Assembly: GCA_016210205.1 (NCBI GenBank)
Contig: JACQUO010000004.1
Span: forward strand, 29,120-93,119
Source of the DNA: Chloroflexota bacterium
Lineage (GTDB): Bacteria; Chloroflexota; Dehalococcoidia; JACQUO01
Direction: 5' to 3'
Length of the DNA: 64,000 nucleotides
The first letter of the stretch is position 1. Every line of letters begins with the position of its first letter. This document shows, in pieces, positions 458-39,286 of the stretch. The notes under the pieces were generated by a model. That model searched no databases, was not told where the DNA came from, and saw nothing but the letters and a program-made list of their open reading frames with translations. The translations under genes were made by a program, and so were the position numbers.

Positions 458-830
458 CAGGCCCTCAGCCCTAAAAATATGCCTTAATTGCTCCTCTGGG
501 CGGTCATACCCCCCGAGCTCAGGTCTTGGCCGGCGCCTTTCTCGCCATGCAGACTGAGCCACCAGTCCCAAGCCATCTCTGAGACTACTCGCCCCAAAAA
601 GTTCCCCGAGCGGACTCGTTGTCCCAGGGCTTGTGAGAGACTGATGACGCCAGTTTTTCTTCAGGCCCAAGGGTATCCCCGGGCCTGAAGGCCCCGCCAC
701 AGTCTGGGACTGCCCGTATCCGCCTGCCTCCACCCATTTCGCTTCTGGCCCAGGGCATGTTGCAAAATACTGTCCCCTGCTTTATAGGTCAGAGCTGATA
801 AAAAGACTGGGAAAAGACTGCTCTGGACTA

Positions 831-859
831 TTGACAGTCCGCAAACGGACTGATATAAT
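831..859 (+). promoter_or_regulatory. Perfect-consensus sigma70 promoter TTGACA-N17-TATAAT with inverted repeat CAGTCCG-CAAA-CGGACTG in the spacer
   Basis: TTGACA 831-836, TATAAT 854-859, spacer 17 nt, 7+7 bp perfect inverted repeat between the boxes. Confidence 0.85.
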
Positions 860-893
860 CCCCCTGCGGACTAAAAACGGAGATGAGTCTAAT

Positions 894-1592
894 ATGGTCA
901 CCGCCACCAAAGAGTCCAGTCCCAAGGAGAAGCGACCCCTCCCCCCCTACGGCCCCGTTGGCGGCATGCTGGAGGGCCTGGGGCTGCTGCAGCGCACTAA
1001 GCCGCCCAAAGTGGACACCGCGTTCCTCCAATCTCAGGGCATCGCCCCCAGGAACGAATACAAGGTGGTCGGTGCCCTGCGCTACCTGGACCTCATCAAC
1101 GACGAGGGGACGCCCACGGAGAAATGCAAGCTGCTGCGAACTCGTGGGCCAGATTACACTCAGGCGCTCCAAGACCTGGTGAAAAGCGCCTATGCCGGGT
1201 TTTTCCGGAACCGGGAGCTCAAGTCCGTCACCGGAGACGCCATCTACAACTACTTCGTGACCGAGGAGGGGCTGGGACCGGAGATGGCCGCCAAGGCCTC
1301 CCGTTTCTTCGTCGCCCTCTGCCAACAGGCCGGCCTCCCCCTGCCCGCCGTGGCCGAGCCCCGGCGGCGCCTCCGCCGCGAGCGGACGGCCCGGCCCGCG
1401 GCCACGCCCCCGCGGCGAGGACAGCGCTCCCCCCGCCAGACCCCAGACATCAAGGGGCCCTTGGCCCCGGCCCCCGACCTGCCCCTGGTCTTCAGCCTCT
1501 CCCCCCTGGAGATGGACCAGCTGGATGACGAACGCCTCACCCAGCTCTTCCGCAAGGTGAGGCAGGCCTGGGAACGCTCCGCCCAGAACTAG
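894..1592 (+). CDS. DUF5343-like protein, possible DNA-binding autoregulator
   Basis: ORF track start (831) is the -35 box; in-frame ATG at 894. Conserved YGPVGGMLEGL..FLQSQGIAPRNEYKVVGALRYLDLINDEGTPTEK; paralogue at 38430. Confidence 0.7.
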   Translation: MVTATKESSPKEKRPLPPYGPVGGMLEGLGLLQRTKPPKVDTAFLQSQGIAPRNEYKVVGALRYLDLINDEGTPTEKCKLLRTRGPDYTQALQDLVKSAYAGFFRNRELKSVTGDAIYNYFVTEEGLGPEMAAKASRFFVALCQQAGLPLPAVAEPRRRLRRERTARPAATPPRRGQRSPRQTPDIKGPLAPAPDLPLVFSLSPLEMDQLDDERLTQLFRKVRQAWERSAQN

Positions 1593-1707: not shown

Positions 1708-2823
1708 ATGTCGGAACTGGGTTATTGGGTCGCCTTCCACCGCATCCCCGGGATTGGACGCCACCGCTTCAACCTTCTGCTGAACCATTTCGGCACCTTG
1801 AAGCAGGCATGGCAGGCCCGGGACAATGAGCTTTACGCTGCGGGGCTGGAAGCCAGGTCAGTCCAGGCCATCGTAAGCCACCGACCGGGGATTTCCCCCC
1901 AAGTGGAGGTGGAGAAGCTGGAACGGGCCGGAATCAGTGCCCTCACCTGGGAGGACCCCGCCTACCCCGCACGGCTGAAGGAGACCCAGGACCCTCCACC
2001 GGTGCTTTACCTCCGGGGCAACCTCACCCCCGCCGACGAATGGTCGGTGGCCGTGGTGGGCACCCGCCGGGCCACCGTCTACGGACGAGAGGCCACGGAG
2101 CGCCTGGCAGGAGACCTGGCCCGGAGCGGCATCACCATCGTCAGCGGCCTAGCCCGGGGCATCGATGCGGTGGCGCACCGGGCCGCCCTGGAGGCCGGGG
2201 GGCGGACCATCGCCGTCTTCGCCTGCGGCCTGGACGTCTGCTATCCCCCAGAGCACAAGGGCCTGGCTCAGGCTGTGGCGGAAAATGGAGCGCTAGTGAG
2301 CGACTATCCCCTGGGAACACGCCCCAGGGCAGAGAACTTCCCTCGGCGCAACCGCATCATGAGCGGCCTCAGCCTGGGGGCCCTGGTCATCGAGGCGGGG
2401 GAGGGCAGCGGGGCCCTCATCACCGCCCGTCTGGCCCTGGAGCAGGGACGGGAGGTCTTCGCCGTGCCGGGGAGCATCCTCTCCCCCCTGAGCCGGGGCG
2501 TCAACCGCCTCATCCAGGACGGGGCCAAGCTGGTCATGGATACCCGGGATGTCCTGGAGGAGCTGAACCTGGCGGTGGTGGGCCAGCAGCTGGAGATGAA
2601 AGAGCTGCTCCCCGAGAATGCCGCCGAGGCGGCCCTGCTCCAGTGCCTCTCCTCCGAGCCCATCCACATCGATATGCTGCGGCGACGCGCCAACCTGCCC
2701 ATGGCAGAGGTGAGCAGCACCCTGGCCATGATGGAGCTGAAGGGGCTGGTCCGCCAGCTGGGCGGTATGCATTATGTAAAGGCACACGAGGCCCAGGTCA
2801 CCTACGAGGTGAGAGCCCGGTAA
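1708..2823 (+). CDS. dprA: DNA processing protein DprA
   Basis: VAVVGTRRATVYGREATERLAGDLARSGITIVSGLARGIDAVAH; GALVIEAGEGSGALITARLALEQGREVFAVPG. Confidence 0.97.
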   Translation: MSELGYWVAFHRIPGIGRHRFNLLLNHFGTLKQAWQARDNELYAAGLEARSVQAIVSHRPGISPQVEVEKLERAGISALTWEDPAYPARLKETQDPPPVLYLRGNLTPADEWSVAVVGTRRATVYGREATERLAGDLARSGITIVSGLARGIDAVAHRAALEAGGRTIAVFACGLDVCYPPEHKGLAQAVAENGALVSDYPLGTRPRAENFPRRNRIMSGLSLGALVIEAGEGSGALITARLALEQGREVFAVPGSILSPLSRGVNRLIQDGAKLVMDTRDVLEELNLAVVGQQLEMKELLPENAAEAALLQCLSSEPIHIDMLRRRANLPMAEVSSTLAMMELKGLVRQLGGMHYVKAHEAQVTYEVRAR

Positions 2824-38140: not shown

Positions 38141-38326
38141 AGTTCCCTCACAGCGACCTTATCATACTCGCCCCGGCCCGACAACCTCCCCGGCCAAGGG
38201 TCTTACCAGGGAGCCGCATCAACCCTGGTAATCATAAAAGTCAATGGTGATTACGTCGGATAATCATCCGTTTGCTAGCCGTTTACGCCACTTTTCATCC
38301 ACAATAAATATCCGTTGATGGGGGTA

Positions 38327-38394
38327 TTGACAAGATAATCAAACATAATTATAATACAGGCACTAGGTAATCAAAGGCAAATGGTCTGATTATC
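38327..38394 (+). promoter_or_regulatory. Perfect-consensus sigma70 promoter TTGACA-N17-TATAAT with GATAATC-like operator sites
   Basis: TTGACA 38327-38332, TATAAT 38350-38355; GATAATC 38334, GGTAATC 38366, CTGATTATCAG around 38390; more copies upstream at 38227 and 38259. Confidence 0.85.
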
Positions 38395-38429: not shown

Positions 38430-39182
38430 ATGGTAGAAAGAGGACGGAAGCCCAGTCAGCCTTCCACGCCACCCTATGCGCCCTGGTCAGAGATGCAGAA
38501 AGTGCTGCAGCGGCTGCGGGGCTTCACCCCACCCCGGGTGGATTTGTCCTACCTGCGCACCTACGGCATCGCCTCCCACAACGAGCGAGCGGTAATCAAT
38601 GCCCTGAAGTTCCTGGGCCTGATAAATGAGACCGGCGTCCCCACCCCACGGCTCCCCCTCCTCCAGGTCAAGGGCGATGCCTACCGGGAGAACTTGAGCC
38701 AAATTGTCCGGGAGGTCTATCGCGACCTCCTGGAGCGCGTGGACCTGGCAGATGCCACCCCAGAGACCATCCTCAACTATTTCCGCACCCGGCGCATCGG
38801 CGGCAGCGTGGCTCCCAAATGCGCCCGCTTCTTCCTGGGCATCATCCGGGAAACGGATATGGCGAGAGGAGCCATGGCCCAAGCGCCCAAGCGCGCCGTC
38901 GCGGCAGAGTTCCGGCCAGAGAAGCGACCCAGCCATCCCGGCCGAGCCGCCAGGGAGCGCTTGATTGAGAAACGGGCTCAGCAGGCATCCAAACCGGCGT
39001 CCCTGATGGAGGCCAAGCTGAAGCTTTTCGAAAAACTGCCGAGCTTCGACGCAACCTGGAAGCCTGAAGCCATCAAGCTAATCTTTGAGGAGCTCCACCG
39101 CTTGGCCGACCGCCTGGAAGAAGGGATGGCCGAGGAAGACAAGGTAGGAGCCCGAGCCGGCAACGGCCGAGGGCGACGCTGA
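38430..39182 (+). CDS. DUF5343-like protein, paralogue of 894-1592
   Basis: PYAPWSEMQKVLQRLRGFTPPRVDLSYLRTYGIASHNERAVINALKFLGLINETGVPTPRLPLL aligns by eye with the first copy. Confidence 0.7.
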   Translation: MVERGRKPSQPSTPPYAPWSEMQKVLQRLRGFTPPRVDLSYLRTYGIASHNERAVINALKFLGLINETGVPTPRLPLLQVKGDAYRENLSQIVREVYRDLLERVDLADATPETILNYFRTRRIGGSVAPKCARFFLGIIRETDMARGAMAQAPKRAVAAEFRPEKRPSHPGRAARERLIEKRAQQASKPASLMEAKLKLFEKLPSFDATWKPEAIKLIFEELHRLADRLEEGMAEEDKVGARAGNGRGRR

Positions 39183-39286
39183 GGCGCAAACTCATTGACA
39201 GGCACGTTTCCGTGGCCTATATTCGTAGGGGAAGACCGTAATCAGCCCATAAGGCTTGAGGTGCACCGGGGAACCGGGAGAAACCG

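Follow-up and report, generated by a model that had tools for sequence, protein, structure and literature searches.

Conserved inverted GGACT half-sites at the promoters of DUF5343 genes suggest an autorepressor in Chloroflexota

The window analysed here is a 64-kb stretch of DNA from a Chloroflexota bacterium. Near its start, the gene at 894-1592 (plus strand) encodes a 232 aa protein that Pfam profile searching assigned to PF17278 (DUF5343; E = 5.9e-11, 43.3 bits, above the curated cut-off of 27 bits), in agreement with the DUF5343-like call of the initial annotation. The perfect TTGACA-17-TATAAT promoter that had been described ahead of this gene is present at 831-859 and matches the consensus at 12/12 positions. 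Around it lie a series of short half-sites, GGACT or its complement AGTCC, and the locus is composed of the following features:

612-616: further upstream half-site GGACT
707-711, plus strand: upstream half-site GGACT, at -124 from the -35
804-809 and 815-820, plus strand: degenerate half-sites AGACTG, 11 bp apart
825-840, no strand assigned: putative core operator GGACT-ATTGAC-AGTCC, whose inverted half-sites span the -35
831-836, plus strand: -35 hexamer TTGACA, sharing its final two bases with the conserved half-site CAGTCC (835-840)
835-852, no strand assigned: palindrome CAGTCCG-CAAA-CGGACTG, arms 835-841 and 846-852 with 4 nt between
847-851, plus strand: extra half-site GGACT within the spacer
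854-859, plus strand: -10 hexamer TATAAT, after a 17-nt spacer and with TG ahead of it
865-872: TGCGGACT, after the -10, containing the GGACT half-site at position 868
868-872, plus strand: half-site GGACT just after the -10, near the expected transcription start
913-922, minus strand: AGTCC-AGTCC, a pair of half-sites within the first codons of the DUF5343 gene
1708-2823, plus strand: dprA, the next gene, starting 116 bp past the DUF5343 stop codon

The initial annotation had taken a full-consensus promoter as a sign of tight repression. The 12/12 match is real, but it is not rare: the 1.42-Mb genome contains ten such matches, and 68 when up to one mismatch is allowed (reversed control, 1), so a perfect promoter is not remarkable by itself. 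Two of the ten belong to DUF5343 genes, and a different repeated word accompanies each. The other eight (G000:C9:3548-3576, C11:28674-28702, C12:524-552, C18:98888-98916, C19:211949-211977, C23:18338-18366, C30:25774-25802 and C34:26419-26447) have no surrounding repeated word as strong as that of the second DUF5343 gene. The half-sites that had been noted on either side of the promoter are present, both TGCGGACT after the -10 and, ahead of the -35, AGACTG at 804 and 815 and GGACT at 825. This GGACT/AGTCC cluster is the densest of the window, with six copies in 140 bp compared with three in the next best place. The most frequent 6-mer at the locus, however, is not significant on its own (P = 0.06-0.09 versus shuffles), so the window locus is only suggestive and the case depends on orthologues.

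Relatives were collected by searching 60 genomes of the class, 25 of which carried them, and by searching named genomes, which yielded 26 loci, almost all from metagenome-assembled genomes, under the titles Chloroflexi, Chloroflexota, Dehalococcoidia or Dehalococcoidaceae. Positions in 28 distinct orthologues were counted from the first base of the -35. Upstream of the orthologues, 2-12 copies of GGACT/AGTCC were counted per 300 bp, with 7-10 being common, compared with the 0.3-0.9 predicted from the remainder of most loci, and in an unbiased 6-mer test CAGTCC/GGACTG or an overlapping word was the top word in many of them. The best promoter scored 11-12/12 in 19 of the 28. The most conserved arrangement places GGACT at approximately -6 and AGTCC (or AGTCT) at +5, giving GGACT-N6-AGTCC over the -35 in 19/28 orthologues from many families. 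In most orthologues a further GGACT lies at +33 to +43, matching the window site at 868, and AGTCC recurs nearer the start codon at +41 to +69; many also feature a pair near -100/-77. The spacing of inverted half-sites shows peaks at 11, 18-20 and 29 bp. The array is weaker or shifted in orthologues L004, L007, L012-L015, L071 and L075. In one orthologue (L109/L122; G026:C102:9152-9219), GGACTGTTGACAGTC occurs a second time, some 50 bp upstream and on the other strand, and this copy is possibly a divergent promoter or simply operators.

The specificity of this arrangement was assessed by a motif-first, gene-blind scan of 393 genomes of the class with the pattern GGACTNNTGACAGTC. This returned 22 places, 17 of which are directly upstream of a DUF5343 reading frame, while four of the remaining five are without TTGACA. 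The reversed pattern gave about 18 scattered matches; as this total is similar, the telling point is the association with one gene and not the number of places. A longer array pattern, run on 27 genomes selected for carrying a DUF5343 gene, identified 27 places, 22 of them at DUF5343 genes, where some were counted once per strand, and five elsewhere, against 36 scattered matches for its reversed control. Unlinked dprA genes had no array upstream, with 0-3 scattered sites in about 1 kb. The array travels with DUF5343, which points to autoregulation, and it looks like a dedicated autoregulatory element rather than the mark of a regulon. A regulon beyond the DUF5343 gene was rejected on the same figures, given that only 5/27 array places in the 27 genomes lie elsewhere and unlinked dprA genes are without the array.

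The second perfect promoter of the window that precedes a DUF5343 gene provides a comparison within one genome:

38229-38392: six TAATCA/TGATTA half-sites around the promoter, at 38229 (+), 38248 (-), 38261 (+), 38336 (+), 38368 (+) and 38387 (-)
38327-38355, plus strand: perfect promoter TTGACA-17-TATAAT of the paralogue, 12/12
38430-39182, plus strand: DUF5343 paralogue, 250 aa, sharing 35% identity with the 894-1592 product across the domain (PF17278 match, 51.1 bits)

Six of the 19 TAATCA/TGATTA copies in the window sit around this promoter, a concentration that 0/200 shuffles reached. The paralogue, whose top relatives belong to the GGACT clade, has 19-bp inverted TAATCA pairs at -98/-79 and +41/+60, compared with -96/-77 and +38/+57 in GGACT-clade orthologues. 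The core site differs, with a single TAATCA copy inside the spacer, and the spacing match to the GGACT clade is thus partial. Outside that clade, several further DUF5343 genes carry a repeated word of their own (L018, with ATTTCA 12 times, L019, L016, L028 and L189), whereas many others showed no significant repeat in the 6-mer test; dozens of such tests were run, and a few weaker words are expected by chance. At L189, which is located elsewhere in the phylum, the four CAAGGT/ACCTTG copies upstream form two inverted pairs. The gene after the paralogue, pilB, has an 11/12 promoter at 39195-39223 with a CACG-TTTC-CGTG palindrome in its spacer; one TAATCA half-site follows the -10 of that promoter (39239-39244) and two more lie within pilB (39876 and 40266). 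These features raise the possibility that the pilus operon is a target of the paralogue. A conserved partnership between the paralogue and the type IV pilus operon was rejected, since no clear orthologue of the paralogue was found and its best relatives are 30-44% identical.

The 894-1592 product has a predicted helix-turn-helix, formed by helices 42-47 and 55-64 and followed by a hairpin. In the AlphaFold2 model, the core (pLDDT 94) consists of helices 8-20, 28-33 and 41-50 (core numbering), short hairpin strands and then a helical bundle, and this order of helices and strands is that of a winged helix. Foldseek comparison of both models with the PDB found no confident relative and no match with E below 0.001, so that the winged-helix fold that we infer is a reading of secondary structure; sequence searches likewise gave no convincing PDB relatives. 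All members of the GGACT clade retain the motif NEYKV within predicted helix 55-64, and the paralogues differ there, the pattern expected if this helix reads DNA. Membership of known repressor families (TetR, LacI, MarR, XRE and LexA) was rejected because Pfam and NCBIfam matched DUF5343 only, and both a phage repressor and a phage or plasmid origin were rejected because there was no match in PHROGs, phage genomes or the plasmid comparison. Pfam lists PF17278 as a family of unknown function, for which the present analysis offers a functional lead, and no mention of DUF5343 or PDC-M34 was found in the literature searched. Both DUF5343 proteins of the window match the PADLOC profile PDC-M34A (component A of the candidate phage defence system PDC-M34; E about 1e-11) over the DUF5343 domain. 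The neighbours here, however, are housekeeping genes (gidB, dprA and topA), and beyond the profile match nothing points to defence.

Which element of the promoter would serve as the operator, and what would bind it, can be weighed against four alternatives. The initial annotation had placed the operator in the spacer palindrome CAGTCCG-CAAA-CGGACTG. Its perfect 7-nt arms are indeed present, and none of the other promoters among the genome's 20 best, all examined for this feature, has arms of that length in its spacer region. Nevertheless, phylogenetic footprinting showed that the half-site array is conserved and the right arm is not, since the GGACT inside the spacer is found in the window only (1/28 orthologues). 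The palindrome is two adjacent half-sites, the left conserved and the right private to this genome, and the left arm CAGTCC has its conserved partner in the GGACT that precedes the -35 (825-829), not in the spacer arm. It is therefore highly improbable that the palindrome alone is the operator. A control at the RNA level, in which leader GGACU...AGUCC hairpins would govern translation or transcript stability, would fit the pairs at +38 and +52 to +58 and the AGTCC beside the ribosome-binding site, all of which are transcribed. Identical half-sites with the same 5-6 nt complementarity nonetheless lie over the -35 and at -100/-77, where they are untranscribed; the leader stems do not exceed the others in length (mean inner extension 0.8 versus 1.1 and 1.6), their sequence is fixed rather than compensated and their loops range from 3 to about 26 nt. 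We regard an RNA mechanism as very unlikely.

If a protein binds the array, it could instead be another cellular regulator, such as a LexA-type global repressor with DUF5343 among its targets. Which protein binds cannot be read from conservation of the sequence alone, and the downstream dprA and topA would suit a DNA-stress regulon. Yet the array occurs almost only ahead of DUF5343 and is absent at unlinked dprA genes, and a shared global regulator would not explain why the paralogue in the same genome has a different half-site; we consider this explanation unlikely. It is also quite unlikely that the DUF5343 protein is an activator or a structural, nucleoid-like protein whose binding represses only incidentally. 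Activators, too, can work from the distances at which the upstream pairs near -100/-77 lie, and these pairs may have such a role, but the most conserved site covers the -35 and the next is at the transcription start, which are classical repressor positions, and a promoter at or near consensus needs no activator.

The reading that we favour, with a probability of roughly 80%, is that the DUF5343 protein acts as a sequence-specific DNA-binding autorepressor at its own promoter. What the sequences show is the array with its position, its conservation and its near-exclusive place ahead of DUF5343, together with the different array of the paralogue; the identity of the binder and the repressive effect are inferred. 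The tight repression and autoregulation that had been suggested for the encoded protein gain strong support from the phylogenetic footprinting, the motif-first search and the paralogue, while the spacer palindrome drops out as the operator. In the proposed mechanism, the protein would recognise inverted pairs of GGACT(G) half-sites at as many as three positions in its promoter. One covers the -35, another falls between the -10 and the start codon, and a third is often present near -100/-77. Once bound, it would block RNA polymerase at a near-perfect promoter, leaving a gene that is strong but shut, with its level set by its own product and with quick release once titration or inactivation removes the protein. 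Negatively autoregulated repressors whose operators overlap the -35 and -10 include the TetR-, LacI- and phage CI-type proteins. The DUF5343 arrangement would resemble theirs in having inverted half-sites at the -35 and close to the start, a strong promoter, its own gene as target and several putative operators at roughly helical-turn spacing. Unlike these systems, the DUF5343 protein falls in none of their families by Pfam, NCBIfam or PHROGs, and its array, with 5-6 nt half-sites at flexible spacing, appears private to its own gene.

Where dprA follows DUF5343, it would be carried along. In 13 of 23 assessable relatives dprA comes next after DUF5343, frequently right against it, and topA commonly lies behind; dprA is probably co-transcribed and co-regulated with DUF5343. 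The array is also kept in relatives where dprA is not the next gene, which makes dprA control more likely a consequence of the array than the reason for it. We would give about even odds to a broader reading, in which DUF5343 proteins form a family of sequence-specific DNA-binding autorepressors, each with a private half-site in a shared layout, and one member controls dprA in many Dehalococcoidia-like Chloroflexota. The half-sites would be GGACTG in the dprA-linked clade, TAATCA for the window paralogue, and possibly ATTTCA, AGGCAA, TTCCAA and ACCTTG in others. If this is true, control of dprA would amount to control of DNA processing or uptake.

The kind of system proposed is ordinary, whereas the role would be new for the DUF5343 family. 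For this phylum, literature searches turned up next to nothing about how DNA uptake or recombination is regulated, and the DUF5343-dprA unit would offer a lead to such regulation in Chloroflexota. A domain of unknown function would gain a testable role together with a ready DNA target, and the paralogues with their private half-sites would provide a natural set from which to work out how the protein reads DNA.
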